Shown here: positions 7,551-38,753 of the stretch, in pieces
Position numbering within the stretch: the stretch's first letter is position 1
Layout of the letters: each line of letters opens with the position of its first letter
DNA from: Cellvibrionales bacterium UBA4495
GTDB taxonomy: Bacteria; Pseudomonadota; Gammaproteobacteria; Pseudomonadales; Porticoccaceae
Reading direction: 5' to 3'
NCBI GenBank assembly: GCA_002388905.1
Contig: DGNJ01000032.1
Span: 22,015-64,511 of the forward strand
DNA: 42,497 bases
Notes under the pieces: model-generated
What the model saw: only the letters and a program-made list of their open reading frames with translations
Told to the model about the DNA's origin: nothing
Database searches by the model: none
Made by a program: the position numbers and the translations under genes

Positions 7551-7897
7551 GGTGACCTCCAGATCAAAAAGACAGATTTACCCGTTCGCAGGATAGGGCC
7601 CGGCGACTCCAGAATGCACCTATCGAATGGTTGTCGGCCCGGGGCTGGGCCAATAGCCGGGCATTGGACTTAAAACCAACGGGGTTAGAATCCTCATCGG
7701 GCCCGCGGTGCGACAAGCGTCGACCCGGACACCCGAAGAAAGTCCCCCAATTTTATAGCCGCGGGGGCCCGACCACAACCTTCGGTTAAGGCGGCGCCTT
7801 AATCCGCTGCCGGAAGATAGGTGAATAGTTGGACAACGGTTGATATTATCCCGGAACATGCCCTTACCCATTCAACAAACACCATTCTGGAGGACAG
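7551..7897. promoter_or_regulatory. Divergent promoter region, thiolase operon / acyl-CoA synthetase
   Basis: A gene-free stretch of about 350 bp between divergent units. It must hold the promoters of both. It contains a half-site of the recurring box at 7811-7823, about 75 bp before the synthetase start, and a strong ribosome site GGAGG before 7898. I could not assign reliable -35/-10 elements. Confidence 0.55.
7811..7823 (-). promoter_or_regulatory. Recurring CTATC box, half-site
   Basis: The minus strand reads CACCTATCTTCCG, which matches the CCTATCTT arm of the palindromic box found elsewhere in the window (for instance 35231). The second arm is not conserved. It lies upstream of the acyl-CoA synthetase gene at 7898. 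Confidence 0.45.
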
Positions 7898-9532
7898 ATG
7901 GCATCGCATGAAATGACACTGCCGCAAGTGTTGAGCCGCGCTGTCGAGCGCAGCCCGGACACGGAGGCCCTGGTATTCCCCAACACCCGAATCACCTACC
8001 GCCAGCTGTCCGACCGGGTCCGGGCAACAGCGCGCTCGATGCTGGGCATGGGCATCAAGCCGGGGGATACGGTGGGCGTACTGATGCCAAACTGTGTCGA
8101 ACACGTCACTGTCTTTTTCGCATCCGCCACCATCGGCGCCCTTTTCGTGCCCATCAACAACCGGTTCCGGGCCCGGGAGTTGCGCCACGTTATCGCGGAC
8201 TCCGGCATGAAAGCCCTGTTTACCAATAACATCGTTGCCGAACACGTGGATTACACCGAGCGCCTCAACGAGGCGCTCCCGGAACTGGCCGGCGCCGAAG
8301 TTGGCGAAACGCCGGGCGCCGCGGCTGCCCCGAAACTGGAAAATATCGTTCTGTTGGGCGATGACCGGGCCGGCGGCATGATTACCGAAGCCGGCTTCGA
8401 CAGCTTCGGCGATTCTGTCAGCGACGATGACCTGGAACGGGCCCGGGAGGCGGTAACCCCGGCGCTCAAGCTCCAGATGCTGTATACCTCGGGCACAACC
8501 TCCATGCCCAAGGGCTGCCCGGTAAGCCACAACCAACTCACCAAAATCAGCCAGGAAGTGGCCGACCACCTGGGTCTGGTGCCGGGAGACAGGGTGTGGA
8601 ATGCCCTGCCCATGTTCCATGCCAGCAGCACCCTGCCCATGCTCGCCTCTTTCCACACCACATCGACCTTTGTGTCCCAACTGCACTTCACTGCCGACCA
8701 GACGTTGCAACAGCTGGTCGATGAAGATATCACTTTCGCGTGGCCCGCCTACGACCTGATCTGGCAGCAGATATTGACCCATCCCGACTTTGATGCGAGC
8801 AAACTGCAAAAAATTCGCGGGCTGCTGATGGTTGGGCCGCCGGATACCCTGAAGCGGATGGAATCGATCCTGCCCAATGCCAAGATCCTCAACTGCTACG
8901 GGATCACCGAGTGCACCGGCATCCCGGTCATGTGCCACCACGAGCAGGAACAGTCAGTGCGCATCGGCACCAGCGGCCTGCCGCTGGGCGACATGGCAGC
9001 CCAGATAAGGGATCCGGAAACCGGGAAGGAACTGCCTACGGGGGAGCGCGGAGCGCTCTGGCTGCACGGCGAATACGTGATCGAGGGCTACTGGAATGCG
9101 CCGGAAAAAACCGCCGAGGCCTTTGACGAAAACCACTGGTTCAACACCGGCGACCTGGGGTCCATCGACAAGGACGGCTATATCCACTTTCACGGCCGCA
9201 TCAAGGACACCCTCAAGGTCGGTGGCGAAAATGTCGCCGCCGTGGAAATCGAGGACTACCTCAGTTCCCATCCCGCCGTGAAGGTGGCCCAGGTGGTGGG
9301 CGTTCCCGACCCCAAGCTCGTCGAGGTCCCCGCCGCATTCATCGAGCTCAAGCAGGGCGAGAGTGTCACGGAAGAGGAACTGATCGATTTCTGCAAGGGT
9401 GAGATTTCCTCCTTCAAGGTCCCGCGACTGGTCCGGTTCGTGACCGAGTGGCCCATGTCCGCCACCAAGATTCGCAAAGTGGACCTGCGGGCCCGGCTTC
9501 TCGAGGAACTGGGGCTCGACAAGGACGACTGA
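7898..9532 (+). CDS. Acyl-CoA synthetase / AMP-dependent ligase (544 aa)
   Basis: Activates a carboxylic acid to its CoA thioester through an acyl-adenylate. ANL-family motifs are clear: the phosphate loop YTSGTTSMPKG at about residue 195, YGITECTG near 335, the GDLGSIDKDGYIHFHGR hinge region near 420, LKVGGENVAAVEIE, and the C-terminal lysine motif PMSATKIRK. The N-terminus is complete and GGAGG precedes the ATG. The acid substrate cannot be told from sequence; the related synthetase at 18446 shares the motif layout, so the island has two activating enzymes. It may be co-transcribed with the hydrolase that starts 94 bp downstream. Confidence 0.94.
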   Translation: MASHEMTLPQVLSRAVERSPDTEALVFPNTRITYRQLSDRVRATARSMLGMGIKPGDTVGVLMPNCVEHVTVFFASATIGALFVPINNRFRARELRHVIADSGMKALFTNNIVAEHVDYTERLNEALPELAGAEVGETPGAAAAPKLENIVLLGDDRAGGMITEAGFDSFGDSVSDDDLERAREAVTPALKLQMLYTSGTTSMPKGCPVSHNQLTKISQEVADHLGLVPGDRVWNALPMFHASSTLPMLASFHTTSTFVSQLHFTADQTLQQLVDEDITFAWPAYDLIWQQILTHPDFDASKLQKIRGLLMVGPPDTLKRMESILPNAKILNCYGITECTGIPVMCHHEQEQSVRIGTSGLPLGDMAAQIRDPETGKELPTGERGALWLHGEYVIEGYWNAPEKTAEAFDENHWFNTGDLGSIDKDGYIHFHGRIKDTLKVGGENVAAVEIEDYLSSHPAVKVAQVVGVPDPKLVEVPAAFIELKQGESVTEEELIDFCKGEISSFKVPRLVRFVTEWPMSATKIRKVDLRARLLEELGLDKDD

Positions 9533-9626
9533 AGGAAAGGGGCGGCAGCACGCGCCGCAGCGAGCGCTGTTCGACGCCTCCCTTTTCCCGGCAACTGATA
9601 TCTTCCCGGCAACAGAAAATCCCGAT

Positions 9627-10478
9627 ATGCCCGAAATACTGGAAACCCGTCTGTACCGGGGCCATGGCAATGTCCGCATCGCCGCGACCGTCGCCGGCAA
9701 TCCGTCGAACCCCGCCGTTTTGCTGATTCATGGCGGCGGCCAGACCCGGCATGCCTGGAATGGAACCGTGCGACACCTGTCCGGGCGAGGCTACTACGTG
9801 ACGGCCATGGACCTGCGCGGCCACGGCGATAGCGACTGGGCACCGGATGGCGATTACAGCCTGGCTGCCCAGACCGGGGATGTCCGGGCCCTGCTGGCGG
9901 AAATGCCCTCACCGGCCACCGTGATCGGCGCGTCCCTGGGTGGCCTGATCGCCCTGGTCACCCTTGGCGAGTCGCCGGATACGCCCGCCGAGGCCCTGAT
10001 CCTGGTTGATGTGGCACCCCGGGTCGACCCCGAGGGGGAGGCCAGGATCGTCAATTTCATGCAGGCCCACCCGGACGGTTTTGCCAGTGTCGAGGAGGCC
10101 GCCGAGGCCGTTTCACGATATAACCCCAATCGTCCGAAGCCCAGGGACAATTCCGGGCTTGAGCGCAACCTTCGCAAGATCGGCAACCGCTACTACTGGC
10201 ACTGGGACCCGAAACTGTTCGACACCCTGGATGCCCGGGCAAAGGACGCGGCGCGTTTCGATGAAGCGGCCCGCCACATCCGGGTGCCCACCCTGCTGGT
10301 GCGGGGCAGCCGCAGTGACCTGGTTCCGGAGGAGAGCGTCAGGCACTTCCTGGACGTGATTCCCGACGCCCGCTACGTGGACGTCCAGGACGCCGGCCAC
10401 ATGGTAGTGGGCGACCGCAACGACGCCTTCCGGGCCGCCCTCATCGAATTTCTGGAAGCTCGTCGCGAGACTCGATGA
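9627..10478 (+). CDS. Alpha/beta hydrolase (283 aa)
   Basis: A serine hydrolase of the alpha/beta fold. The oxyanion-hole segment HGGGQTRHAW is near residue 35, the nucleophile elbow GASLGG has the serine at about S103, an acid candidate is in LVRGSRSDLVPEE, and the catalytic histidine is in DAGHMVVGDRND near the C-terminus. No signal peptide, so it is cytoplasmic. Possible roles are hydrolysis of an ester, lactone, enol-lactone or C-C bond in the pathway; the substrate is not identifiable. The ribosome site before the ATG is weak. Its last 38 bases overlap the 3' end of the oppositely oriented TetR gene. Confidence 0.87.
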   Translation: MPEILETRLYRGHGNVRIAATVAGNPSNPAVLLIHGGGQTRHAWNGTVRHLSGRGYYVTAMDLRGHGDSDWAPDGDYSLAAQTGDVRALLAEMPSPATVIGASLGGLIALVTLGESPDTPAEALILVDVAPRVDPEGEARIVNFMQAHPDGFASVEEAAEAVSRYNPNRPKPRDNSGLERNLRKIGNRYYWHWDPKLFDTLDARAKDAARFDEAARHIRVPTLLVRGSRSDLVPEESVRHFLDVIPDARYVDVQDAGHMVVGDRNDAFRAALIEFLEARRETR

Positions 10479-11052
10479 TCGCCGAGACCGCGGGCAGCGA
10501 GCCCTCGAGCCCGGACACCGCCAGCTGTTTGAAGATATCCGCCATGGTTTCCGGGGAATGGGGGAAATCACTGTGCACCCACCAGATCAGCAAGCCCATC
10601 AGGGCGCTGACCAGGTACTGGACCACCGGTTCGACGCTGTCGAGACGCTGGCTGCCGGATTGCTGCCTGAGCCAGCTGCGGGTTCGCACCACCAGCATAT
10701 TGCGCATGTGAATGGATGCGACTGTATTGCTCTCCATGGTCAGGAATGCCCGGGACATCCCCGGATGCCGGCTGGCTCCCTGGAACAGGACCCGGGCAAA
10801 ATCGGGGTAGGCGGAATCCCCCTCCCCTATTTCGAACATATCGTCGGACGAGGTGATGCCGATATCCTGCAAACCGCTGAGCAAGAGGTCGTCCTTGTCC
10901 CGGAAATGGGCATAAAAACTGGACCTGGCGACACTGGCCCGGTCGATCAGCTCGGCGACGGTGATCGATTCGTAGGACTTTTCGTGCACCAGCTCGTAGA
11001 GCGCGTTCCGCAGCGCCCCCCGCGTCTTGTCAACCCGGCGATCCACTTTCAT
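10441..11052 (-). CDS. TetR/AcrR-family transcriptional regulator (203 aa)
   Basis: The N-terminal 60 residues hold the TetR helix-turn-helix: TRGALRNALYELVHEKSYESITVAELIDRASVARSSFYAHF contains the expected recognition helix ending in YxHF, followed by RDKDDLLL. The C-terminal part is the variable ligand-binding helical domain. Members bind palindromic operators as dimers and are released by a ligand, often an acyl-CoA in fatty-acid clusters. It is divergent from the acyl-CoA dehydrogenase operon at 11327, and the best palindrome of the window (11119) lies between them, about 70 bp upstream of this gene. It is therefore a candidate local repressor and autoregulator. The start lacks a strong ribosome site. 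Confidence 0.9.
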   Translation of the reverse strand: MKVDRRVDKTRGALRNALYELVHEKSYESITVAELIDRASVARSSFYAHFRDKDDLLLSGLQDIGITSSDDMFEIGEGDSAYPDFARVLFQGASRHPGMSRAFLTMESNTVASIHMRNMLVVRTRSWLRQQSGSQRLDSVEPVVQYLVSALMGLLIWWVHSDFPHSPETMADIFKQLAVSGLEGSLPAVSAIIESRDELPEIR

Positions 11053-11118
11053 CGATTTGTCTGCAACCGCTGTAAACAGGCTCTATTATGCCCCTCAATT
11101 TTCGGCAGGAAAAATCGA

Positions 11119-11133
11119 CTATCTTTTAGATAG
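11119..11133. promoter_or_regulatory. Palindromic operator-like box CTATC-N5-GATAG
   Basis: CTATCTTTTAGATAG is a perfect inverted repeat of CTATC with one more spacer base than the 14-bp copies elsewhere. It lies between the TetR gene (start 11052) and the acyl-CoA dehydrogenase operon (start 11327). A leader of about 190 bp follows before the dehydrogenase start and includes a small hairpin (CGGATT / AATCCG, 11264-11280). Confidence 0.65.
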
Positions 11134-11326: not shown

Positions 11327-12490
11327 ATGGACTTTCAACTGACCGAAGAACAGCAGGCCTTCCGCGACGTGGTACGTCGCTGGGTCGACGCCGAAGCCCC
11401 CAAGGACTGGATGCGAGAGTTGGAGAAGGATGAGGAAAACTACCCGTTCGCACTCTGGGACAAGCTCAAGAAAGAAGGCTTTTTCGGCATCGGCATCGAT
11501 GAGGAATACGGCGGACTGGGCGGCGATATCATCATGCAGATGATCTTTGCCCGGGAATTCGCCCGCACCGCCGGCGGCCTGCTCTGGACCTGGGGCCTCA
11601 CATCCTTTGCCGGCGCCAAATCCGTAGGCCTGTACGGCACCGAAGAGCAGAAGCAGCGCTGGCTGGCGCCCATGGCCGCGGGCGACCTGCGGGTTTCCAT
11701 CGGCATGACCGAGCCGGACGGCGGCACCGATGTGCTGGGGGCCATGAAAACCTTCGCCAAGAAAGTGGAAGGCGGCTGGGTGATCAACGGGGCGAAAATG
11801 TGGTGTACCGCCGCCAAGGTGGCGGACCGCATACTGCTGCTGGCCCGCTCGGAAAAGAATGTCGAGAAAAAGCACCACGGCCTGACCCTGTTTTTCCTCG
11901 ACGCCAAGTCCGAGGGTGTCAGCGCCAGCCTCCTCCCCAAACTGGGCATGCGCGCCATGGGTTCCTGCTCCGTGACTCTCGATGACGTCTTCGTCCCGGA
12001 CGAGGATGTGCTGGGCGAGCCCGGCAAGGCCTGGTACATGCTGTTGCCCACCCTCAACAACGAACGCATCATGGTGGCCGCCCAGTGCCTCGGCGCCATC
12101 GACGGTGTCCTCGAAGACGCCGTGCAGTACATGAAAGAACGCAAGGCCTTCGGCAAACCCATTGGCCAATTCCAGGCACTGCAACACTACGTGGCGGATA
12201 TCGCCACCTGGCAACAAACCACCGAGCTACTGCTTTATTATGTATCCTGGTTGCAATCGCGCGGCGAGGAGTGCGGTGTCCAGGCCAACATGCTGAAAAT
12301 GGTGGCCACGGAAAATGCCGTCAAAGCCGCCGACCTGGGCATCCAGATACTCGGCGGCATGGGTTACTCGGCGGAAACCGACATGCAGCGCTACTGGCGG
12401 GATCACCGCATCCTGCGCATGACCCCCATCTCCAACGAGATGGTGCGCAACTCCATCGCCGAGAGCCTGGGGCTGCCTCGCTCCTTCTGA
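11327..12490 (+). CDS. Acyl-CoA dehydrogenase (387 aa)
   Basis: A second FAD-dependent acyl-CoA dehydrogenase. Marks include MTEPDGGTDVLG, NGAKMWCTAAKVAD, ERKAFGKPIGQFQ, and QILGGMGYSAETDMQRYWRDHRI. The C-terminal glutamate of medium-chain enzymes is absent (RMTPISNEM), but a glutamate is at about E246 in LNNERIMVAA, the position used by isovaleryl- and long-chain types. It differs strongly from the copy at 2907, so it likely acts on another intermediate. It leads an operon with two hotdog hydratase subunits and a VOC protein, placing dehydrogenation directly before hydration of the same intermediate. The ribosome site is weak. Confidence 0.93.
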   Translation: MDFQLTEEQQAFRDVVRRWVDAEAPKDWMRELEKDEENYPFALWDKLKKEGFFGIGIDEEYGGLGGDIIMQMIFAREFARTAGGLLWTWGLTSFAGAKSVGLYGTEEQKQRWLAPMAAGDLRVSIGMTEPDGGTDVLGAMKTFAKKVEGGWVINGAKMWCTAAKVADRILLLARSEKNVEKKHHGLTLFFLDAKSEGVSASLLPKLGMRAMGSCSVTLDDVFVPDEDVLGEPGKAWYMLLPTLNNERIMVAAQCLGAIDGVLEDAVQYMKERKAFGKPIGQFQALQHYVADIATWQQTTELLLYYVSWLQSRGEECGVQANMLKMVATENAVKAADLGIQILGGMGYSAETDMQRYWRDHRILRMTPISNEMVRNSIAESLGLPRSF

Positions 12491-12539
12491 GTGAGCCAGG
12501 CGCCCGTTCATTCCATTTAGACGCCAAGGAGTAACATTT

Positions 12540-12983
12540 ATGGAACTACCACCGCCCCCGGACGTCGCGGGCACCTCCCTGTCGGGCTCCGAGCCCTACA
12601 CAATCTCCAGTGAGGAGAACCGCGCGCTCTGTGAATCGGTCAACACTCAGCCGGCCGAGGACGGCAGCGCCCACCCCATCTACTACTATATTGCCACCCA
12701 GGTGGGCATGGGCCAGACCGTGGCGGGTTTGTGCGAAATTTGCGACTTCGACGTGGAAGTCGGCCCCATGATGGCCAGCAGCCAGGTGGATTTCCAGCAG
12801 CCCCTGAAGACCGGGCAACCCTACCTGGTGGAAGGGGAGATCGTCGATATCGTGCGCAAAAAGAGCCGCAAGCTGGGCGTCATGGATATTGTCACCTATG
12901 AACTGCGGCTGACACTGCCGGACAAAACACCGGTATTGTCCACCACCAATGCATGGGTACTGCCCAGGAGAGAATTGACATGA
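12540..12983 (+). CDS. MaoC-type hotdog protein, likely non-catalytic hydratase subunit (147 aa)
   Basis: A hotdog-fold protein resembling the N-terminal half of double-hotdog MaoC dehydratases and small subunits such as ChsH1. Visible features are the YYYIATQVGMGQTVAGL helix, the GPMMASSQVDFQQPLKTGQPY strand region, and IVRKKSRKLGVMDIVTYELRL. The Asp/His hydratase motif is missing, so it is probably a structural or substrate-shaping partner of the next protein. The genes overlap by four bases (ATGA), a sign of translational coupling and equal production. AGGAG precedes its ATG. Function as half of a heteromeric enoyl-CoA hydratase is inferred from family knowledge. Confidence 0.8.
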   Translation: MELPPPPDVAGTSLSGSEPYTISSEENRALCESVNTQPAEDGSAHPIYYYIATQVGMGQTVAGLCEICDFDVEVGPMMASSQVDFQQPLKTGQPYLVEGEIVDIVRKKSRKLGVMDIVTYELRLTLPDKTPVLSTTNAWVLPRRELT

Positions 12984-13396
12984 AACCGACGGTAGGCGAT
13001 ACCCTCACCCCCTTCCGGATCGAATCCGTGAGCCCGGACGCCATGAAGGACTGGGCAAAATTCCTGCACGACCCCAACCCCATCCACCTGGACGTGGAAG
13101 TGGTCAAGGCCAAGGGGCTGGGCGACAAGCGGATCAACCAGGGCCCAGCCAACGTGGCCTATATTATGAATATGCTGATGAACGCGTTTCCCGGCGGTCA
13201 GATCGTAGCCATGGAATCCCGTTTCGTGGACAATGTCTGGGAAGACGATACAGTGGAAACGCTGGGCAAGATTACCGATGTCGAAGACACCGGCGATTAC
13301 TGGCGGGTCACCTGCGAGACGGGCCTTAAGGCCGAGGGACGGGATTTCGTCATCACCGGCAAGGCCGTGGTCCAAGCACCCAAAAACGGCAATTGA
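12980..13396 (+). CDS. MaoC-type (R)-specific enoyl-CoA hydratase, catalytic subunit (138 aa)
   Basis: A hotdog protein carrying the hydratase-2 motif: DPNPIHLD with the catalytic pair at about D31 and H36, followed by the GPANVAYIMNMLM helix. It should add water to an alpha,beta-unsaturated acyl-CoA. The start is the ATG at 12980, overlapping the previous stop codon as ATGA and preceded by AGGAGA; an upstream in-frame start at 12953 would lie inside the previous gene. Together with the preceding subunit it forms a split hydratase like ChsH1-ChsH2 of mycobacterial steroid side-chain degradation. It follows the acyl-CoA dehydrogenase gene, as such pairs usually do. Confidence 0.88.
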   Translation: MKPTVGDTLTPFRIESVSPDAMKDWAKFLHDPNPIHLDVEVVKAKGLGDKRINQGPANVAYIMNMLMNAFPGGQIVAMESRFVDNVWEDDTVETLGKITDVEDTGDYWRVTCETGLKAEGRDFVITGKAVVQAPKNGN

Positions 13397-13469
13397 TCGA
13401 GGCCGTCGGCGGTCGCAGGACCGTTTACACCCACTGAAAATACCGAGCACTTAATCGAGGAGTGAAATT

Positions 13470-13982
13470 ATGCCAAGCGGACCTTTTACCCACGTCGCCA
13501 TGGTCGTCAAGGACCTGGAAAAAGCCACCGAGGACTGGACAGCCATCCTGGAAGTCCTGGACCCCGCCCAACTGCAGGACCCCATCGTCAAGTACGACGA
13601 GTTCTCCAGCGGCGAGGACGCCGGCATGCGCTGGGTGACTTTCGTGAATCATCACGGCGCCGAAATCCAGCTTATTGAGCCTTCCCCGGGCACCCCCATG
13701 GGCGATCGCCTGGAAAAAGTGGGCGAGCATGTCCACCACCTGTGCTTCACCACGCCGGATGTGCCCGGCGCCCTGAAGAAGCTCGAGGAAAAGGGCGTCA
13801 AGCTCATGAGCGGCGGCCAGGTCTTCAACGATCCCGATATGACCTGGCAACGGTGGGGCTGGGTCTCCCACAAGAGCACCCACGGCTGCCTCATTGAAGT
13901 GGCTTCCCCCTACCAGAGCAAAAAGGACGGCAAGTGGCACTCCGCGGAGACCAACGACCACTCCGGGGCCAAGGCAGGCTGA
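13470..13982 (+). CDS. VOC-family protein (glyoxalase / methylmalonyl-CoA epimerase-like, 170 aa)
   Basis: A vicinal oxygen chelate protein with two beta-alpha-beta-beta-beta modules. Likely metal ligands are H8 (FTHVAMVV), a glutamate in IQLIEPSPG, a histidine in HVHHLCF at the start of the second module, and a glutamate near the end (CLIEVASPY). The layout is closest to methylmalonyl-CoA epimerase and glyoxalase I, but substrate cannot be assigned. GGAG precedes the ATG. It closes the dehydrogenase-hydratase operon and is followed by a strong terminator. An epimerase would suit a pathway that yields branched or methyl-substituted CoA intermediates and that also has a biotin carboxylase. Confidence 0.85.
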   Translation: MPSGPFTHVAMVVKDLEKATEDWTAILEVLDPAQLQDPIVKYDEFSSGEDAGMRWVTFVNHHGAEIQLIEPSPGTPMGDRLEKVGEHVHHLCFTTPDVPGALKKLEEKGVKLMSGGQVFNDPDMTWQRWGWVSHKSTHGCLIEVASPYQSKKDGKWHSAETNDHSGAKAG

Positions 13983-14026
13983 CAAAACGGCCGTGGCCTG
14001 CCACGGCTTGTCTCGCCAGTATACGG

Positions 14027-14057
14027 AAGGGCCCTCGACGGGCCCTTTTGTTTTTTC
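14027..14057 (+). terminator. Intrinsic terminator of the dehydrogenase-hydratase operon
   Basis: AAGGGCCC (14027-14034), loop TCGAC, GGGCCCTT (14040-14047), then TTGTTTTTT. This is a perfect eight-base stem with a T-rich tail, 45 bp after the VOC gene stop. Confidence 0.9.
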
Positions 14058-14141
14058 GATACCTGACTGACTAATTATCGACCCTACAAGCAAGCCGGGG
14101 AAATACGAATCCGGCACCAAACAACTTTCCAGGAGCCAGTC

Positions 14142-17581: not shown

Positions 17582-17595
17582 CTATCTTAGGATAG
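17582..17595. promoter_or_regulatory. Palindromic operator-like box CTATC-N4-GATAG
   Basis: CTATCTTAGGATAG is an inverted repeat with intact CTATC/GATAG arms and a four-base spacer. It lies 94 bp upstream of the DUF2889 gene at 17690 and 55 bp after the second phosphatase gene. Confidence 0.65.
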
Positions 17596-20095: not shown

Positions 20096-20197
20096 AGCCG
20101 CATTCCCAGATTTGCCTGCAATATCAGCAACACGCACACCACTTCTCGCCTGGATGCGCCGAACCACGGCGGCCCACCGACTGATGGTTTTTGCTTT

Positions 20198-27119: not shown

Positions 27120-27133
27120 CTATCTTTGGAAAG
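27120..27133. promoter_or_regulatory. Recurring box before the carboxylase-P450 operon
   Basis: CTATCTTTGGAAAG has one intact arm and a second arm with one mismatch to the CTATCYWWRGATAG consensus. It lies 72 bp upstream of the carboxyltransferase start. Another CTATC half-site is at 27094. The crotonase gene ends at 27150, so the operon can have its own promoter here. Confidence 0.55.
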
Positions 27134-28097: not shown

Positions 28098-28136
28098 CTA
28101 TCCAAAGTTAGAAAGGGTACAATTCAATCATGATAG
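28098..28136. promoter_or_regulatory. Recurring box between crotonase and LAL regulator genes
   Basis: CTATCCAAAGTTAG (28098-28111) matches the consensus with one mismatch in the second arm. A GATAG half-site follows at 28132-28136. Both lie in the divergent region, 104 bp upstream of the regulator start and 127 bp upstream of the crotonase start, so they could serve both genes and allow autoregulation. Confidence 0.6.
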
Positions 28137-28214: not shown

Positions 28215-30941
28215 ATGAAAATATTGCGCGTAAAGCTCCGCCCACCGGGATTCCATTCAGACCTCACCCAGCGGCCGAGGCTCGAGCACCGTCTCGACGA
28301 GGCAGTGCATGCCCGCGTGAGTCTGCTTATGGCACCTGCAGGGTTCGGCAAATCCAGCCTGATGGTCCAATGGTACCGACGCTTGCAGGATTTGGGGTAC
28401 TCGCCTCGTTGGCTAACCATTGACAAAACCATCGGAGAAGCCGTGGACATCCTTGGCTATCTGATAGCGGCTTTACACGTTGATGAAACCCAACCGGCCC
28501 CGGGCGAGGCGGCCTATACCGGAGGACTGGCTTCTGCCGATTACTTACTGGACCTCCTTCTGGAGACGCTGGAAAGCGTTGCCTCGCCCACTTATTTCTT
28601 CCTGGATGATTTCCATTTACTCAGCGATGGTGCCGTCAGCGCCGTGGGCAGGCTTATCGAGCAGGCACCAGGAAACACCCATTTCATTATTGCCAGCAGA
28701 ACACAGCCTGAACTGCCTCTGGCTCGCGCCCGAACGCTGGGCGAATTACTGGAACTCGATGCCCAGGAACTCAAATTCAGCCTGGGTGAGACACGGCTAT
28801 TCCTGAACCACAACCTTGCCAGCCCGCTCGGCGACGAGATCACGAAGACTCTCCTTGAACGAACCGAAGGCTGGATTGCCGCCCTCAAGCTTGCGACGCT
28901 TGCCATGAGACGGGGTGTGACGCCGGAAAAACTGTTGAGTACGGTTAACGGCCGTAACCGGACGATAGCCGACTACTTCAACGAGGAGGTGCTTTCTCCA
29001 CAAAACAGCGCGATCCGTGACTTTATGCTCAAGACCTGCATCCTGGAACGCTTTTGTCCGGAACTCTGCAATGCCGTTACAGGCCAGGATATGGCCCGGG
29101 AAATGATTGACGAAGTGGAGAGCAAGGGCCTGTTTCTATTCCAACTGGACGAAGAACGTCACTGGTACCGCTATCATCACCTGCTCGCCAAATATCTCTC
29201 CCGGTTACTCGGCGAAAATGACCCGGAACTTCTGTACCAACTGCATCGACGTGCATCCAAATGGTTCTGGGCGGAAGGTTACTTCTCCGAAGCAATGGAA
29301 CATGCCCTGCAGTCAGGCGACATGCACTACGCCGCAGAACTCCTGGAGGAGAGCTCCCTGGGGTTTACCTACAGCGGCAACATACGCCAGGTTGCCCGTT
29401 TTTCGGCGAGGATTCCCGATCTGATCATCAACCGGCAGCCTCGCATCCTTCTCACTTTGTCCTGGTTCCATACCCGGGGCATGCGATTTGAGCGAAGCCA
29501 GGAAATTCTTGACACCGCCCGGGAGTGTATTGAACAACTGGAATCCTCGGGATCCCTTGGCGCGACGCAGTTGCGCGAATTACGCTATTTATTGCTGCAT
29601 CGGCAAATGCTCCTCACTTCCGCCCGCGACGATGTCATAACGCTGGAAAAACAGTGTCGCCAATTGCTGGATGACTTTCCGGAAATGGAACACCCCTACA
29701 TGGTTGGAACCACTTACTGTCATCTTCTCCTGTCACGCAGGGAGCAATACAAACTCGATGACCTGGAACAGCTGTGGCTCGCGGTCAAGGGCGTGGAAAG
29801 CCGCTCGCCTTATTCCATGCTGGTTCCGGCCCTTCGCGCCGACCTTGGCCCATCGCTGTATTTTGCCGGAAAGACCACGTCGGCCCGCCAGGCCCTGGAA
29901 GAAGGGCTGCAAAAGGCGATTGAGTTCTCCGGCCCCAGGTCCGCACTTGCCTCATTGCCTGCTCTTCCACTGGCCGAAATGGCCTATGAGCGCAACGACC
30001 TCGAACAGGCGGAGAAGTTGATTTCCGATGCCCTGCCGTCGGCCCGGAAGCTGGGTTATATCGACCAGCTCATGCCCGGCGTGCTGACTCTGGCCCGCTT
30101 GCATCGTGCCCGGGGCAATACCCAGGAAGCATTCCAGGCTCTCGACGAGGGAATGGTCATCGCGCTGGACCGCCAACTCGAACGTTTCCGGCTTGGCCTT
30201 ATAGACGAGCGCGTCAAATATCTGTTCCAGGATGGCCGGACCGAAGAAGGCATGAACTATGCGAAAAACGCGGGAATCTCTCTCAATGAAACCCCACCTC
30301 TCCCCGAAACGGGCGTCACCACGCGCCAGGAATTACTTGCCAGTATTTGGGTAAGGATAGCAATTGCCACACTCAACATCCGGCAGGGGCTCGATGTTGC
30401 CAAACACTGGCGCGTATTTTGTGCGAAACGGGGAGCCGTGCGGTCACTTATCCGCTGGAACCTCCTGCATGCCCAACTTCATTTCCTGGATGGCCAGGAG
30501 AACGAAGCGCAACGCCCGCTCCGGGAAGCGCTGACCCGTGCCTCAGACGCAGACTTCAAGCGCAGCTTCCTTGATGAAGGCCCACTGATCCGGGCGCTTC
30601 TCCAGAAAGCCTATTCTCCGGAACCGGTTACCGACGACTCCGTTGAGCAGTTTGCCAGCGAGCTACTGCAATTTTTCGAGGGCAATTCCCCCATAGTGGA
30701 TACCGATGAAGAGGATGTAAACGGGACGGTCGTCGAGGGACTCCATGAAAATCTCACCAATAACGAGCTTAAAATACTCGGAATGGCCGCCCACGGTTTG
30801 CGCAATCGGGAAATTGCCAGCAAGTTGGGCATGACCGAAGGTTCGATAAAATGGTATATGCAGCAGATATACGACAAGCTGGGGACCCGGCCGCGAACCC
30901 GTGCCATCGATAAAGCACGGAAACTGGGACTTATTCAGTGA
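28215..30941 (+). CDS. LuxR/MalT-type (LAL) ATP-dependent transcriptional regulator (908 aa)
   Basis: A large ATP-binding LuxR-family regulator like MalT and AlkS. The N-terminal NTPase has Walker A APAGFGKSSL (lysine about 46) and Walker B TYFFLDDFHLL. A winged-helix segment and a long helical-repeat region of about 450 residues (TPR-like, sensory) follow. The last 60 residues are the LuxR helix-turn-helix (LTNNELKILGMAAHGLRNRE, then IASKLGMTEGSIKWYMQQI). Such proteins bind an inducer and ATP, oligomerise, and activate at repeated sites. The ATG at 28215 with GGGAT upstream is preferred to an earlier TTG. It is divergent from the crotonase gene, shares an upstream box with it, and is the leading candidate activator of the island. 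Confidence 0.93.
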   Translation: MKILRVKLRPPGFHSDLTQRPRLEHRLDEAVHARVSLLMAPAGFGKSSLMVQWYRRLQDLGYSPRWLTIDKTIGEAVDILGYLIAALHVDETQPAPGEAAYTGGLASADYLLDLLLETLESVASPTYFFLDDFHLLSDGAVSAVGRLIEQAPGNTHFIIASRTQPELPLARARTLGELLELDAQELKFSLGETRLFLNHNLASPLGDEITKTLLERTEGWIAALKLATLAMRRGVTPEKLLSTVNGRNRTIADYFNEEVLSPQNSAIRDFMLKTCILERFCPELCNAVTGQDMAREMIDEVESKGLFLFQLDEERHWYRYHHLLAKYLSRLLGENDPELLYQLHRRASKWFWAEGYFSEAMEHALQSGDMHYAAELLEESSLGFTYSGNIRQVARFSARIPDLIINRQPRILLTLSWFHTRGMRFERSQEILDTARECIEQLESSGSLGATQLRELRYLLLHRQMLLTSARDDVITLEKQCRQLLDDFPEMEHPYMVGTTYCHLLLSRREQYKLDDLEQLWLAVKGVESRSPYSMLVPALRADLGPSLYFAGKTTSARQALEEGLQKAIEFSGPRSALASLPALPLAEMAYERNDLEQAEKLISDALPSARKLGYIDQLMPGVLTLARLHRARGNTQEAFQALDEGMVIALDRQLERFRLGLIDERVKYLFQDGRTEEGMNYAKNAGISLNETPPLPETGVTTRQELLASIWVRIAIATLNIRQGLDVAKHWRVFCAKRGAVRSLIRWNLLHAQLHFLDGQENEAQRPLREALTRASDADFKRSFLDEGPLIRALLQKAYSPEPVTDDSVEQFASELLQFFEGNSPIVDTDEEDVNGTVVEGLHENLTNNELKILGMAAHGLRNREIASKLGMTEGSIKWYMQQIYDKLGTRPRTRAIDKARKLGLIQ

Positions 30942-30963: not shown

Positions 30964-31365
30964 TCATCCGTCCCCTGCCATATCGCTGATGCGTTTCGTA
31001 TCCCAGTAATAAGGCCAGAGCGCCACCGCTTTGCCATCCCGGCATTCCCAGACCTCACAAACCGACATCGACACTCGCTCCCCGGTTTTCGGGTCCCTGC
31101 CCCGCAGACGCAAAACGGCTATCACCCAGTCGCCATCGGCGATCATCCGCTCCACCTCTCCCACCAGGGTTCGGTTCCAGAAAGCGGCGACCTTTCGCAA
31201 CAGGCTTTTAAACCCCTGGAAGCCTTCGTATTCTCCACCATAAGGCAGTGACTCGGCCTCTATGAGGTAAAAACCGGGAGCCAGCAACGGCTCCATGCGG
31301 TCCACCTCACCACCAAAGATACATTGATAGATACGGACCACGGTAGCCAAATTGGGATTATCCAT
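30964..31365 (-). CDS. NTF2/SnoaL-like protein (133 aa)
   Basis: A small alpha+beta barrel-type protein of the NTF2-like superfamily, which includes ketosteroid isomerases, polyketide cyclases and many non-enzymatic binders. The N-terminal helix VVRIYQCIFGGEVDRMEPLLAPGFY, then GFQGFKSLLRKVAAFW, and strands ending in VCEVWECRDGKAVALWPYYWD are typical. Active-site residues cannot be assigned with confidence. It lies downstream of the TonB receptor gene, beyond that gene's terminator, and is convergent with the LAL regulator gene. It may isomerise or bind a cyclic pathway intermediate, but this is a guess. Confidence 0.78.
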   Translation of the reverse strand: MDNPNLATVVRIYQCIFGGEVDRMEPLLAPGFYLIEAESLPYGGEYEGFQGFKSLLRKVAAFWNRTLVGEVERMIADGDWVIAVLRLRGRDPKTGERVSMSVCEVWECRDGKAVALWPYYWDTKRISDMAGDG

Positions 31366-31420
31366 TTACCTTCTCCGGTTCTCTGCCGACCTGTACCTGT
31401 TTGGCCTTTGCCACACGGAC

Positions 31421-31450
31421 CAAAAAAAGCCCCGCTGAAATAGCGGGGCT
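31421..31450 (-). terminator. Intrinsic terminator of the TonB receptor gene
   Basis: On the minus strand AGCCCCGCT, loop ATTTC, AGCGGGGCT forms a nine-base stem (31450-31428) followed by seven T residues. It is 37 bp after the receptor stop codon. Confidence 0.92.
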
Positions 31451-31486
31451 CCATTGGTGGGGGAACCATGCTCCCAGGCCATTGGA

Positions 31487-33700
31487 TCAGTACTCGTAGC
31501 TGACCCTGATGCCTGCTGTGCGTGGCGCGCCCACAAAGCGGTTTTCACCGAGTGCCCCCAGCGTCGCGCCCCAGATTGAATATTCTTCATTACCGAGGTT
31601 TTTGCCAAAGACCGCCACTGTCCACTGCGCCGAGGGATCGGTATAGGTCACGCTGGCGTCCCAGAGTTCATAGGCGGGCTCCCGGATATTGTTGAGGTCG
31701 TCATGGTACTGGGCACCGACCCGGCTCCAGGAGGCGCGGAAGGCCAGATCCCCGGCATCGCCCAGCGGCACTAGGTAATTCGCCGTGGCGCTGTAGGTCT
31801 CATCCGGAACCCTTGGAAAATCCAGGTCTGCGGCCAGATCCGGATCCGAAGCACCGTCGCCGTCCACATCCAGGCCCTCGAACTTATCATAGGAGGCATC
31901 GGTGTACCCGTAAGCGAAGGTGAAGGTCAGATCATCCGTCGCCTGCAGGACGATATCCGCTTCCAGGCCCTGAATGGTCGCCTGGGCCGCGTTGCCGGTG
32001 GACTGCACCACGCCCGCAGTCACGCTGGGCACCAGGATGGTCCGCTGAAGGTCGTCGAACTCATTGTGGTAGATCGCCAGGTTCAGGCGCAGGCGGTTAT
32101 CGAGCATATCGCCTTTATAACCCACTTCAAAGGCGGTCACCTGTTCGGAGTCAAAGGGCGGCAGGAGTTCGTTGCCCCGCATGCTGAAGCCCCCACTACG
32201 AAAGCCCCGGGTGGCACTGCCGTAAACCAGCTGGTTTTCATCCGGCTCCCAGGTGAGCGCCAGTTTGGGCGAAAAATCGTTCCAGTCATCGTCGGCGGTC
32301 GGCCCCAGATCACACGGCAGGAAGGTACGGATCCTGACGGTAGCGTCCGCTATGCTGTTGTCCAGCGGGCAGACAAAACCCCGGGTCTGCGCATCGATGG
32401 TTTCCTGGGTATAGCGCCCGCCCAGGGTAAAGGTCCAGTTGTCGGCAAAATTGAAGTCGATTTCACCGAAGACAGCCGTGGATTCCTGCTCCAGCTTACT
32501 GGCGGTGGCAAATACCAACGCACCCAGTGCCAGCTCGCGTCCTTCCCGGTACTTCTGTTCCTGCTCGAAGTAGTAGGCGCCGACGGTGAACTGTCCCCAG
32601 TCAGCGAGATTGGACGCATAACGCAACTCCTGGGAGAACTGGTCCTGCTCGTAACTGATACTCTGGTTGAAACCGACAATGGGCGTGCCGTCGAAATCGG
32701 TCCAGTTGAAGATATCGGTCTCGCGATAACCGGAAATGGAGGTAACCACTCCCTGACCGACATCCCAAGTCACCTCAAGTGTGGCGGTATCCACCTCGAC
32801 GTCGGACTCGCCAGGATCGTTCAACTGGATATCCCACCAATCCTCGGATTGATCGAAACCCAACTGGTCGGGAAGATTTCCCGGTCTCTCAATGGCGATG
32901 GCGGCGGTGGAGTCACCGTCATCCTCGTAGGTATCGACAATCAGCGTGGCCTGCACATCGTCCACCGGCTGCCACACCAGGGTGCCCCGAACAAGGCTGG
33001 TGTTGGATTCCCCGAAATCCTTACCGGTTACCAGATTGTCGTAATAACCATCCAGGTTGCGGTCGAGCACCACCAGCCTGCCCGCCAGTGTATCTTCGAT
33101 AATGTCGCCCTCGACGGCCACGGAAATATCACGACGGCCATAAGAACCGTAAATGCCTTCGGCGGCGAAGCCGAATCCCTCGCCAACTTCCGGGCGCTTG
33201 GTTTGCACCAGCACGGCGCCACCGGTCACATTGCGGCCGAACAGCGTCCCTTGAGGACCCCGCAGGATCTCCACGGACTGAACGTCAAACTGGTCGAGCA
33301 GGGAGCCGTAGTTCATGCCCCAGAATACGCCGTTCTGAAAAACCCCCACCGCCGGCTGGTCGGACGGGGTTGTACCCGTAACACCCATACCGCGAATGTG
33401 GAAGTTCTGTACACCGACCTGGCTGGAAGACTTCAATTCGACGTTGGGCGCCAATCGGCCCAGGTCCTGAAGGTCATCCGCAAAAACGGCCTTGAACTGC
33501 TCTTCCCCGAATGCCGTCATGGCAATGGGCGTATCCTGGACAGCTTCCCCGGCAGCTCGTTTACGCGCGGTTACCACCACTTCTTGCATCAGTGCCGAGC
33601 GGGCTTGCGGCTCAGCATCTTCCTGAGCGTAGAGAGCGGTTGTGCTTATCCCCAGAGAGACGGCAACAGCCAGGTTGGACATGCGAATTGATTGCGACAT
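31487..33700 (-). CDS. TonB-dependent outer-membrane receptor (737 aa)
   Basis: An outer-membrane beta-barrel transporter driven by TonB-ExbBD. A signal peptide ends near ALYAQ (about residue 26). A TonB box-like segment MQEVVVTARKR follows, then the plug domain with NFHIRGMGV, VEILRGPQGTLFGRNVTGG, and a barrel of alternating aromatic strands ending in RVSYEY. The closing residue is tyrosine rather than phenylalanine. This subfamily is very common in marine gammaproteobacteria and sphingomonads and often serves uptake of hydrophobic or aromatic substrates. GGGGAG precedes the ATG, a full copy of the recurring box lies about 120 bp upstream, and a terminator follows. It is the likely entry port of the pathway. 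Confidence 0.95.
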   Translation of the reverse strand: MSQSIRMSNLAVAVSLGISTTALYAQEDAEPQARSALMQEVVVTARKRAAGEAVQDTPIAMTAFGEEQFKAVFADDLQDLGRLAPNVELKSSSQVGVQNFHIRGMGVTGTTPSDQPAVGVFQNGVFWGMNYGSLLDQFDVQSVEILRGPQGTLFGRNVTGGAVLVQTKRPEVGEGFGFAAEGIYGSYGRRDISVAVEGDIIEDTLAGRLVVLDRNLDGYYDNLVTGKDFGESNTSLVRGTLVWQPVDDVQATLIVDTYEDDGDSTAAIAIERPGNLPDQLGFDQSEDWWDIQLNDPGESDVEVDTATLEVTWDVGQGVVTSISGYRETDIFNWTDFDGTPIVGFNQSISYEQDQFSQELRYASNLADWGQFTVGAYYFEQEQKYREGRELALGALVFATASKLEQESTAVFGEIDFNFADNWTFTLGGRYTQETIDAQTRGFVCPLDNSIADATVRIRTFLPCDLGPTADDDWNDFSPKLALTWEPDENQLVYGSATRGFRSGGFSMRGNELLPPFDSEQVTAFEVGYKGDMLDNRLRLNLAIYHNEFDDLQRTILVPSVTAGVVQSTGNAAQATIQGLEADIVLQATDDLTFTFAYGYTDASYDKFEGLDVDGDGASDPDLAADLDFPRVPDETYSATANYLVPLGDAGDLAFRASWSRVGAQYHDDLNNIREPAYELWDASVTYTDPSAQWTVAVFGKNLGNEEYSIWGATLGALGENRFVGAPRTAGIRVSYEY

Positions 33701-33816: not shown

Positions 33817-33853
33817 CTATCCAAAGATAGCACTCAACCGGCGACCTGGATAG
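33817..33853. promoter_or_regulatory. Palindromic operator-like box before the TonB receptor gene
   Basis: CTATCCAAAGATAG (33817-33830) has intact CTATC/GATAG arms and is the best match to the 14-bp consensus. A TGGATAG half-site follows at 33847-33853. They lie in the 215-bp gap between the P450 stop (33916) and the receptor start (33700). Confidence 0.7.
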
Positions 33854-35230: not shown

Positions 35231-35256
35231 CCTATCTTTTTACCCTATCTTTTTAC
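35231..35256. promoter_or_regulatory. Tandem 13-bp direct repeat of the CTATC half-site
   Basis: CCTATCTTTTTAC occurs twice with no gap (35231-35243 and 35244-35256). Each copy holds the CTATCTT arm of the recurring box. The pair lies about 105-130 bp upstream of the P450 start at 35127, in a 267-bp gene-free gap. Confidence 0.65.
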
Positions 35257-35394: not shown

Positions 35395-36675
35395 TCATAT
35401 CGCAGCCCGCGACAACTGTGGACCGATTTTATCGTTATTCGATGCCGGCATTCTCAAAAGAAACAGGCATGCCATCGCCACCAAAGTCACCAAAAGCATG
35501 ATCAGGAACATCAGCCTGTAACTGCCGGTAATGTCGTAAATCCAGCCGGAAAGCACCGGCGCCACAGCCGTAGTGGCCAACATGGCAAAGGTCATGGCCC
35601 CCATTACCCGGCCGTAGATGCGGGTCTGGAAAATGCGCCCCACCAGCGATGCCAGCAAGGGGAAAACACCGCCCCCCACAAAGCCCTGCAACAGTACTGC
35701 CAGCATGAGCGTTTGGTAATTGACAGATAACATAAAGACAACGGATGCTGTGCCGCTGATGGCAAACAGGACCAGACCAATAAGCCTGTTACTCAGGATA
35801 TCGCAATAATGGCCCACCAGGGGACTGGCAATCATCCCCAACACAAAAAAGACCGAGACCAGGTAGGCGCCACTCTCGTTACTTTCACCCAGATCGATGG
35901 CAAACAGCGACAGGTTGGTAATGACAGCCACGTTGACCATACTGGTACAGGCGATGGCGACGGCGACAAGTACAAAGGCTCGACGCCTGCAAAGGTCGAA
36001 AAAAGTCACCCCGAACTCATGCTTTCGAGAGACATCGGCATGACTCTCCGCCGACGCGCCATGATCCCCACCCTTTTCTTTCGGACGGTCCACCACCAGA
36101 AAATAGGCCAGCAAGGGCATGATCAGGATAATACCCGCCCCCAGCCCGAGCATGGCCACGCGCCAGTCATAAAGGACGATCAAATTCGCCAGAAGTGGTG
36201 GAAAGATCAAGCCGCCAAACTGGGTTCCCAGGGAGGCAATGCCGAGTGCCAGGCCCCGTTTTTTAGAGAACCAGCGGGCAAGCAGTGTGGAACAGGTCAG
36301 CGGACTGAGGGTCGCCAGGCCGACGCTGACAAAGAGGGCATAGGCCACGATCACGTGCCAGATATGCCGACTGAGCCCTATCCAGATAAATCCCAGCCCC
36401 ATAATGATGGAACCGACAATCATGATCCATTTAATGGGGAAGCGATCCAGCAAAGCACCCACCCGGGGAGACAACAAAGCCGCGCACAGCACCACGCCAG
36501 TGGCTCCCATCATCACCAGGGCCCTTCCGCCCGGGTAGGCCTCACCCAGGGGAGTGGCCACCACACTGTAGACATAGAGCGAGGAGCCGAAGCCCACACT
36601 CTGCACCAGCAGACTGATCACGACCAGCCACCAGCCGTAGAAAATCCGGGGTGCTTTGCCTGCTTCAGTGGACAT
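35395..36675 (-). CDS. MFS transporter, monocarboxylate/OFA-like (426 aa)
   Basis: A 12-helix major facilitator. The FYGWWLVVISLLVQSVGFG opening is typical of the monocarboxylate/oxalate-formate antiporter group. Later features are the central loop rich in charged residues (DRPKEKGGDHGASAESHADVSRK) and helices ending in FLIMLLVTLVAMACLFLL. It should carry an organic acid across the inner membrane. It is the last gene of the phosphotransferase-SDR-MFS operon, 70 bp after the SDR. It is unlike the Spinster-type carrier at 21486, so the island has two inner-membrane carriers, perhaps for substrate and for a by-product. Confidence 0.92.
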   Translation of the reverse strand: MSTEAGKAPRIFYGWWLVVISLLVQSVGFGSSLYVYSVVATPLGEAYPGGRALVMMGATGVVLCAALLSPRVGALLDRFPIKWIMIVGSIIMGLGFIWIGLSRHIWHVIVAYALFVSVGLATLSPLTCSTLLARWFSKKRGLALGIASLGTQFGGLIFPPLLANLIVLYDWRVAMLGLGAGIILIMPLLAYFLVVDRPKEKGGDHGASAESHADVSRKHEFGVTFFDLCRRRAFVLVAVAIACTSMVNVAVITNLSLFAIDLGESNESGAYLVSVFFVLGMIASPLVGHYCDILSNRLIGLVLFAISGTASVVFMLSVNYQTLMLAVLLQGFVGGGVFPLLASLVGRIFQTRIYGRVMGAMTFAMLATTAVAPVLSGWIYDITGSYRLMFLIMLLVTLVAMACLFLLRMPASNNDKIGPQLSRAAI

Positions 36676-36745
36676 GGATAAGCTTCCTCGCCAGCTATTT
36701 ATTTTTCGATGGGCACGGGCCTGCCTGTTCGCCCCCTATTGGCAG

Positions 36746-37498
36746 TCATTCATTGCGCAGGTAGAGGGACATCATCATGGTTCGGGCGCCGCCATCCACG
36801 GGCAGGTCGACGCCGGTCACAAACCCTGCCTCGGGCTGGAGCAGAAAATAGATAACCTCGGCAATATCCTTCGGCTTCCCGATTCGCCCCAGGGGAATAT
36901 TGCCCTCGCGGACTTTCCGGATTGCCGGGTCATCATAGAGATTAGCATTCAGGGGGGTCCGGGTAGTGCCTGGCGACACCAGATTGCACCGGATGCCGTC
37001 CGGCCCCCACTCCGCCGCCAACTGCTGAATCAGCATCGACAACGCCGCCTTACTGACACTATAGGCCCCAAGCGAAGGAGTGGGATACTGTCCCGACAGG
37101 GAGCCGACGGCAATCAATGAACCCTGCGATTCCCTGAGCCAGGGATAGGCCGCCTGGGCCAGGGCGAAGGTGGCCCGGACATTGATAGCCATGACCTGGT
37201 CGAAATCCGCCAGGGAAAGATCGCTGAGGGGCCCCGGAAGTATGCCGCCGGCGTTGCTCACCACCGCGTCCACGCCCCCCATTGCATCGACCGCTGCCCG
37301 GACGATTTGCCGACCGGCATCCGGCGCGCCCACGTCCGCCACGGCTGTATGGACACCGGGAAATTCGCCGGCTATTCCCGCCAGCTTTTTCCGGTCGCGG
37401 CCCACCACAAGAAGCTCGTCGCCGTTTCCCCTGGCCGCGAACAGTTCAACCAGCGCGCGACCGATCCCACTGCTGCCCCCGGTAATGATGATTCGCAA
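36746..37498 (-). CDS. Short-chain dehydrogenase/reductase (250 aa)
   Basis: A classical SDR beginning MRIIITGGSSGIGRALVELF, with SNAGG near residue 86, the catalytic serine in AVGSLSG, and YSVSK with Tyr and Lys intact. VVGRDRKKL after the second strand favours NADP. The C-terminus VTGVDLPVDGGA is standard. It lies 57 bp after the phosphotransferase gene and 70 bp before the MFS gene. It is the third SDR of the window, and the three differ enough to act at different steps. Confidence 0.92.
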   Translation of the reverse strand: MRIIITGGSSGIGRALVELFAARGNGDELLVVGRDRKKLAGIAGEFPGVHTAVADVGAPDAGRQIVRAAVDAMGGVDAVVSNAGGILPGPLSDLSLADFDQVMAINVRATFALAQAAYPWLRESQGSLIAVGSLSGQYPTPSLGAYSVSKAALSMLIQQLAAEWGPDGIRCNLVSPGTTRTPLNANLYDDPAIRKVREGNIPLGRIGKPKDIAEVIYFLLQPEAGFVTGVDLPVDGGARTMMMSLYLRNE

Positions 37499-37555
37499 TC
37501 AACCCCTCCTTAAAATACCCGGCATCATATAAGCCGCCACCTTGTTCATCCGCAT

Positions 37556-38671
37556 CTAATCATTGAACAGGGCATCATGGGTCTCCAACCGTTTTACCGC
37601 CGCATTGAAGCGAAGTGCTTCCAACTCGCATACCTCGGGAGGCTGCATCACCGGGGGTACGGTATTCCACACCAGCCCATACATGGCGTGGCGGCGATAA
37701 CTGAGCCAGGCTTGGTCCCAGTCCAGGTCCCGCACACCCTGGCTTTCAAGTTCCTCAAGATATCCCCTGAGCAGGGATTCCTCGTGCCTCGCGCTTTCGT
37801 CCATGTCCATGCAGCCGATAACAAAGTAGGCGACGTCATGCCCCCAATCGCTCTGCATCAGGCGTTGCCAGTCGAGAAAGCCCGGCGTGCCGTCCTGTTC
37901 GAAAAACAGGTTTCCCGGATGCGCGTCGCCGTGGACCATACACAGGTTGTTCGATTGCCTGTCCAGTTCCCAAAGCCGCTCCATGCCGGCGACCGCAGCT
38001 TCGTAATGCCGCAAGGCCTCCGGTACGTCCCGGGAATAGTCCTTTTCCATTGCCCTTTCCCAGGCGGGCACATCGTCGCCGGAGCCATCATTGCCCCAGT
38101 CCCGTTTGCCCATGATCTTGAGCACGATGCCATCCGTGGCCAGTGAACCACCCACGGGTCCCAGCCTGTCCAGTTCCGGACTTTTCCACCAGTGGGCATG
38201 CAGGCGGGCAAGCTGCTTTAGCCCGTCTCGCACGGTGGCCAGGGGCACGGGATTTCGGGCATCGCCAAACCAGGCGTTACGTTGCAGGAGGTCCTCGATC
38301 AGTTGAACACCGAAGTCTCCGCTGTCACTGATACTCGCGTAGTAACACGCAGGCGAATTCACCAGCTTCAGGGGCTCGATCTCGCTATAAAACAGGCTTT
38401 CGCGGGCATGGGATGTACGCACATTTTCGGTATGGGGCTCGTAACCGCCCTTGAACCACATGGTGGGCGGTAACCGGTGCCTGTGGCCCGCGTCGTTATA
38501 CTCGAGCAACAACCGGATCTTGGTGCCCGTGGCGCGCTTGGCTCCCCCGAAGGTGACATGCAAGACCTCGGTCCCGGGAAATTTTTCGCTAAGCGCCGAC
38601 GTCAACCATTCCCTGGTGACATCCTCGATCCTTTCAGGTGGTTTCACAGTATTCGATCTTGCACTTTTCAC
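37556..38671 (-). CDS. Phosphotransferase, APH / ecdysteroid-kinase-like (371 aa)
   Basis: A small-molecule kinase of the APH/choline kinase fold. The catalytic loop is MVHGDAHPGNLFF near residue 245, with the conserved Asp and Asn, and the metal-binding Asp is in GFLDWQ. The N-terminal region with TKIRLLLEY, MWFKGGYE and the ESLFYSEI helix resembles the ecdysteroid 22-kinase-like group and the kinase domain of ACAD10/11 proteins. In lipid pathways such kinases phosphorylate a hydroxyl so that it can be eliminated, as known for 4-hydroxy acids. That role here is inferred. It is the first gene of a three-gene operon with a CTATC-type half-site 76 bp upstream. Confidence 0.85.
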   Translation of the reverse strand: MKSARSNTVKPPERIEDVTREWLTSALSEKFPGTEVLHVTFGGAKRATGTKIRLLLEYNDAGHRHRLPPTMWFKGGYEPHTENVRTSHARESLFYSEIEPLKLVNSPACYYASISDSGDFGVQLIEDLLQRNAWFGDARNPVPLATVRDGLKQLARLHAHWWKSPELDRLGPVGGSLATDGIVLKIMGKRDWGNDGSGDDVPAWERAMEKDYSRDVPEALRHYEAAVAGMERLWELDRQSNNLCMVHGDAHPGNLFFEQDGTPGFLDWQRLMQSDWGHDVAYFVIGCMDMDESARHEESLLRGYLEELESQGVRDLDWDQAWLSYRRHAMYGLVWNTVPPVMQPPEVCELEALRFNAAVKRLETHDALFND

Positions 38672-38746
38672 GATTAATCACCCATTCTGCCCGCTGGAAA
38701 ATTCATAAGCAGGGTACGAGCAAGGAACACGCCGACCACCTCACTA

Positions 38747-38753
38747 AAGATAG
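38747..38753 (-). promoter_or_regulatory. Recurring box half-site before the phosphotransferase operon
   Basis: AAGATAG, preceded by CTCACTA, lies 76 bp upstream of the phosphotransferase start. The minus strand reads GCTATCTTTAG, matching the CTATCTT arm. The second arm is lost. It also shares GATAGCA with the copy at 33817. Confidence 0.45.

Follow-up and report, generated by a model that had tools for sequence, protein, structure and literature searches.

An inverted-repeat box is the probable operator of a LAL (MalT-type) regulator in a bacterial P450/CoA catabolic island

Several described regulators of catabolic genes offer points of comparison for the system considered here. In the alkane regulon of Pseudomonas putida GPo1, AlkS, a LuxR/MalT-type activator acting in hydrocarbon catabolism, is described as using an inverted-repeat operator upstream of a catabolic promoter and of its own promoter, with positive feedback (PMC8784404). 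MalT sites are presented in PMC6099782 as direct repeats of decanucleotides, and the same source describes TpdR of Rhodococcus jostii TMP1, a LAL activator of a catabolic operon, with the 15-nucleotide direct repeat TnnAAnnGCGGAnTC as its proposed site. In the account of PMC8700777, the repressor EdcR of Caenibius tardaugens controls a catabolic cluster through the palindrome TnnCnnTACnAnTnGTAnnGnnA. We analysed 42,497 nucleotides of contig DGNJ01000032.1 of Cellvibrionales bacterium UBA4495 (hereafter the window, about 42.5 kb or 1.3% of an assembly of 3.38 Mb in 132 contigs), in which a palindromic box, CCTATC-N4-GATAGG, recurs across an uncharacterised P450/CoA island that also encodes a LAL (MalT-type) regulator. 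Because the box precedes most island operons and adjoins LAL genes in relatives, it is most likely the docking site of LAL, and we regard it as very probably the operator of this regulator. An autoregulated LAL activator that switches on the P450/CoA catabolic island would be the best explanation of the pattern.

As in the description of AlkS (PMC8784404), a LuxR/MalT-type protein is paired here with an inverted repeat before its own gene; the operators were compared by description, the gene content differs, and binding is reported for AlkS, whereas the box is known from sequence alone. The regulator shares its domain order with MalT, but the box is an inverted repeat, with a 4-bp spacer in most sites, unlike the direct repeats described for MalT (PMC6099782), and no maltose genes were seen among the window open reading frames (ORFs) scanned. 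TpdR resembles the island regulator as a LAL activator of a catabolic operon and differs in its direct repeat, which is unlike the box (PMC6099782). The likeness to EdcR lies in a palindrome-controlled catabolic cluster, there in a sphingomonad, and the difference in a repressor acting through another palindrome (PMC8700777). In the literature searched the box appears undescribed: six exact 14-mers occurred in no paper, and the consensus spelling in none among the matches listed.

The proposed reader of the box is a 908-amino-acid protein encoded on the plus strand (28215..30941), with TPR_MalT and GerE domains and a weak AAA_16 match below the cut-off (21.3 versus 32.6). Its start is placed at the ATG at 28215, and the database copy likewise has 908 amino acids; the first-listed TTG start at 28158 is probably too early. 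The size of the protein and its C-terminal GerE helix-turn-helix (residues 865-920 of 927 in the longer TTG-start translation) fit the LAL class, and the N-terminal ATP-binding domain with P-loop that belongs to this class was found by alignment of the MalT N-terminal structure 8bob over residues 35-396 (E 2.9e-46), with the P-loop (gfgkss) and an LDD motif visible. The protein scored 332.6 bits against the NCBIfam MalT equivalog, below the cut-off of 537. Among the scanned window ORFs it is the only GerE-type regulator found.

A protein-guided scan with the window LAL returned 56 loci, comprising a gammaproteobacterial contig with a 69% identical LAL (L016) and 55 loci at 31-38% identity (L017-L071), titled mostly as Alpha- and Betaproteobacteria and in one case just as 'bacterium'. 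In 50 of these 55 loci, CTATC-N4-GATAG with no more than one mismatch is found 250 bp or less from the LAL match (upstream in 44, downstream in 37); the rest of 1.05 Mb contains 59 further places. The inverted repeat stands upstream of the regulator's own gene in 44 of the 55 loci, and in the window at 28098; perfect palindromes upstream of LAL genes number 37, of which 32 are distinct. A second box follows closely on the LAL stop codon in 37 of the 55 loci, at a distance of 8-219 bp from the end of the LAL match; the gene behind this box on two sphingomonad plasmids encodes a 3-keto-5-aminohexanoate cleavage enzyme. From 81 LAL-adjacent sites of the 55 loci, many of them close relatives, reduced to 51 distinct 18-mers, we built a symmetric 18-column matrix with the consensus A/T-CCTATC-NNNN-GATAGG-T/A; at a score of at least 10 it found 205 places in these loci, against 43 for the reversed matrix.

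In the aligned LAL ends, LAL genes with a box nearby bear the helix signature KWY[ML]QQ, and a site scoring at least 10 lies within about 350 bp in 58 of 63 signature rows versus none of 13 rows with another DNA-binding helix, the latter being also more distant relatives. These rows remained of 90 after removal of eight duplicates (L073, L074, L075, L076, L083, L086, L092 and L093) and six rows without helix-turn-helix coverage; 55 of the 63 are the training loci, and five of the other eight have a site. Searches for LAL in 369 genomes of the class and 390 of the order gave one match each besides the source genome, the new one being L124; among the nine signature LALs outside the training set, five have a nearby site.

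Applied to the window, the matrix finds six sites at a score of at least 10, all intergenic, although intergenic DNA makes up about 10% of the window (4268 of 42497 bases, on corrected gene calls). In 100 dinucleotide shuffles the mean was 0.82 and the maximum 4; at 12 or more there are four sites (shuffle mean 0.24, maximum 2), and the reversed matrix gives no window place at 8 or more. The sites at 17582, 33817, 28098, 27120, 39805, 7583, 7807 and 38740 are all intergenic, and the box centre lies 75-133 bp from the start codon in nine of 11 gene-site pairs; the other two distances are 39 (thiolase) and 201 bp (ACAD). The literal 14-mer CTATCYWWRGATAG matches exactly at 17582 and 33817, with one mismatch at 27120 and 28098 and with two at 38740. 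At up to three mismatches it has 10 window matches against a shuffle mean of 5.30; since five of 100 shuffles also reach 10, the literal pattern is weak by itself and only modestly enriched.

These results support the original prediction that the box marks a hidden regulon, and the sites at 7583 and 39805, absent from that prediction, are now added. The observation behind it is confirmed in part: a degenerate site at 15771-15802 falls outside the 40 best matrix places and is unsupported, and no supported site precedes the phosphatases, which it had also listed. The half-sites it reported fare unevenly: GATAGGTGA occurs three times in the window, always between genes (7816, 33813 and 35228), whereas only 20 of 57 bare GATAG occurrences are intergenic. 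An RNA hairpin or known RNA element was considered and rejected: Rfam gave no match in the window at the gathering threshold, and the boxes inspected by eye have no trailing run of T.

Conservation at orthologous promoters was followed in three gammaproteobacterial relatives, two of the same family as the source genome (G018, locus L089; G007, locus L090) and one of the same order (G140). In G018 and G007, the divergent thiolase and ACS1 genes (73-75% and 65-67% identical) have ACCTATCGAAAGATTGGC between them, scoring 17.2, where the window has the sites at 7583 and 7807; by eye, GGATAGGTGAA occupies the position matching 7807 in both loci. The ACAD orthologue on contig C88 of G007 (83% identical) has GACTATCTGAAGATAGGT 132 bp upstream, matching in place GACTATCTTTTAGATAGCC at 11119 of the window, where the spacer is one base longer, and the orthologue in G018 (86%) has a 17.4 site ahead. 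In G140, sites precede the thiolase (23.9) and an ACAD-like gene (18.1), and a 14.8 site lies between divergent LAL and P450 genes, the latter 63% identical. In total, seven of ten orthologue neighbourhoods in these genomes have, 104-180 bp ahead of the match, a site scoring at least 15.9; four of the seven had already been seen earlier, and among the six new neighbourhoods three are positive. The conservation in related islands on which the earlier note had staked its claim is present for seven genes and missing for three. In G007 the contig that carries LAL has no site at 10 or more, the sites being on different contigs, and this separation fits a trans-acting factor. Across five plasmids together with G018 and G140, perfect palindromes number 17 against one for the control; in G398 none of the three orthologues looked for was found.

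Annotated plasmids place different genes next to LAL and its boxes: thiolase, FadJ, TonB and F420 genes on Novosphingobium pSA2, F420 genes in Croceicoccus, a hydroxyquinol dioxygenase in Massilia, and a dioxygenase with maleylacetate reductase in Caballeronia; an Agrobacterium plasmid has a single strong box about 6 kb from LAL. Since the plasmids pair LAL and boxes with such differing genes, it seems that the operator is retained as the cargo changes. With slightly more confidence than doubt, we propose that one operator code, CCTATC-N4-GATAGG, is kept by the KWY[ML]QQ branch of LAL proteins, about 33% identical, across Alpha-, Beta- and Gammaproteobacteria, over cargo as varied as P450/CoA islands, F420-linked clusters and hydroxyquinol pathways. 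If so, scanning for the box would lead to a large, as yet undescribed group of catabolic regulons, to which unlabelled genes (DUF2889-like, SnoaL-like) could be assigned. On two sphingomonad plasmids, the DNA downstream of LAL (L092, 15001-27114; L093, 14959-26062) carries cofC, cofH, npdG and genes for F420-dependent LLM enzymes, and L093 additionally cofD and cofE.

The position of the palindrome relative to putative promoter elements is activator-like. Among the 32 distinct regions upstream of LAL, 26 have a TTG beginning exactly 10 bp downstream of the palindrome, and 11 have GATA at the -10 position, separated by a 17-bp spacer. With usual promoter spacing such a palindrome would be centred near -52, a position from which activators contact RNA polymerase. 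In the window, inspection by eye shows TGGCGT-N16-TAAAAT after the site at 11119. LAL would sense a pathway compound together with ATP and then assemble; its paired GerE-type helix-turn-helix domains would bind both arms of A-CCTATC-N4-GATAGG-T, and the bound protein, sitting just upstream of weak -35 elements, would recruit polymerase and so activate the catabolic promoters plus its own. This proposed mechanism parallels that of AlkS, which is described as working in this way (PMC8784404). If it is correct, one short operator ties LAL to about 26 genes of the island, the LAL subfamily gains a clear inverted-repeat code, and searches of other Proteobacteria for the same operator and regulator can yield complete catabolic regulons with their uptake receptors and unlabelled enzymes.

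Several observations weigh against LAL as the reader of the box. The closest relative, L016, has no box in the promoter of its LAL gene, and L016 is one of four signature LALs among the nine outside the training set that have no nearby site (with L089, L096 and L124); L124 bears the signature and has no site at 7 or more, and the training loci L024 and L051 also have no nearby site. The six exceptions to the 10-bp TTG distance include all four betaproteobacterial rows (L034, L041, L070 and L071), and the spacing was observed in LAL upstream regions outside the window. No upstream site was found for the ACAD of G140 (contig C52) or the TonB genes of G018 and G140; a 13.3 site lies past the 3' end of the G018 TonB gene. 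Separation from shuffles fades at lower scores (16 window places at 4 or more, shuffle mean 10.63), and three places inside ORFs, 18235 (9.9), 41553 (9.5) and 32838 (9.3), outscore the sites at 7807 and 38740. The arms of the training sites were derived from the window pattern of the original prediction; this choice gives no advantage to positions next to LAL genes. In the source genome itself, eight of 25 scored places outside the window reach 10 or more, the best 16.7, and two of the eight are intergenic (C5:52717, 14.1; C127:38790, 11.4), so score alone cannot separate weak sites. In L016, an ORF (1-486) that looks transposase-like on inspection fills most of the upstream DNA and stops about 150 bp short of LAL.

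The signature-bearing LAL genes without a nearby box would also suit a regulator encoded outside the island that reads the box and has LAL genes among its targets. We consider this very unlikely: the link between them spans records of three proteobacterial classes and plasmids with differing cargo, and the box is absent beside the 13 LALs with another helix, though these are more distant.

The island also encodes a TetR-family regulator (10441..11052, minus strand; TetR_N E 2.8e-10, with TetR matches in the PDB), which the original prediction had named beside LAL as a candidate binder. TetR proteins usually bind palindromes, and this gene adjoins the perfect-arm 15-mer at 11119, so that the box could be the operator of the TetR repressor, with LAL genes as its targets. 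We regard this as very unlikely. Across loci L016 to L122 a TetR relative (E 1e-5) is present on one contig alone (L016/L086), which has no site at 10 or more, and the box occurs in loci that have no such relative. Because LAL has the box next to it in 50 of 55 loci, and the TetR relative sits on one boxless contig, LAL is the better of the two candidates. An ORF at 10558-11133 was rejected as antisense to the TetR gene; it had no homologue, and TetR_N lies on the opposite frame.

Chance palindromes in AT-richer intergenic DNA would account for the modest enrichment of the literal consensus and for its density in the assembly. Over the whole assembly, CTATCN4GATAG at up to one mismatch occurs at 40 places and its reversed control at 42, so that the box is not in excess in the genome at large. 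Four of the 40 places lie in the window, all intergenic by a mechanical ORF rule; of the 36 outside, 25 were classified and scored with flanks, and 19 of these lie inside ORFs versus six between genes. The genome-wide density that the earlier note had offered as its own refuting test shows no overall excess, but 1.3% of the sequence accounts for four of the 40 places, all lying between genes, compared with six of 25 classified outside; on balance the refuting tests of that note speak mostly for its reading. The matrix from other genomes, the shuffles, the reversed matrix and the conservation at orthologous promoters make chance an extremely improbable source of the boxes as a whole, although it may still explain the site at 15771 and some half-sites. 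Five of the six outside intergenic places (that on C5 excepted) lie by Pfam-labelled genes: Ldh_2/amidase, FAD monooxygenase-like, SurE/Nramp/thioesterase, sodium symporter and peptidase M3. The near-match at G000:C63:36513 (9.3) is intergenic, 14 bp from the FAD monooxygenase-like gene outside the island, and this gene might be a further target.

In the window, LAL as reader of the box would control about nine putative transcription units with at most 26 genes, in addition to LAL itself. At the left, the thiolase-FadJ-ACAD2 unit (2907-7550, minus) is preceded by a degenerate box (7583..7596, minus; 10.4), and ACS1, an acyl-CoA synthetase gene (7898-9532) followed by a hydrolase gene, by a one-arm box containing GATAGGTGA (7807..7820, plus; 9.1). 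A 15-bp palindrome with perfect arms and a 5-bp spacer, GACTATCTTTTAGATAGCC (11119..11133, plus), lies ahead of ACAD-MaoC-MaoC-VOC-SDR (11327-14900); neither the window nor loci L016 to L122 contain another 15-mer of this kind. The DUF2889-like gene (17690-18442), a borderline assignment at 25.9 bits against a cut-off of 25, has a perfect box ahead (17582..17595, plus; 21.7), and the six-gene AccD-AccBC-SDR-MFS-P450-ACS2 unit (18446-27048, minus) a box at 27120..27133 (minus; 14.7). A box at 28098..28111 (18.4) lies between LAL and the divergent crotonase gene (27150-27971, minus). Further right, a perfect box (33817..33830, minus; 19.4) precedes TonB receptor-SnoaL (30964-33700, minus), two direct GATAG half-sites found by inspection (35232..35249, minus) precede a P450 gene (33916-35148, minus), a one-arm box (38740..38753, minus; 8.0) precedes phosphotransferase-SDR-MFS (35395-38671, minus), and a box at 39805..39818 (minus; 11.1) lies ahead of the luciferase-like monooxygenase gene (38802-39707). 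In the window the glutamine cyclotransferase, both phosphatase and the TetR genes have no supported box of their own. Both P450s and the carboxylase gave PDB matches of a generic kind, which point to no particular substrate.

An ORF at 2847-4094 was rejected as antisense to ACAD2 (2907-4082). The ACAD protein of the 11327-13982 region is 86% identical to those of Acidocella and of an Acetobacteraceae metagenome-assembled genome, where the gene is likewise followed by MaoC, MaoC and VOC; this identity and shared gene order suggest that the ACAD-MaoC-MaoC-VOC block was transferred between classes. At the right edge of the window lies an RND efflux pump gene (ACR_tran, 39884-42472), whose start falls outside it.

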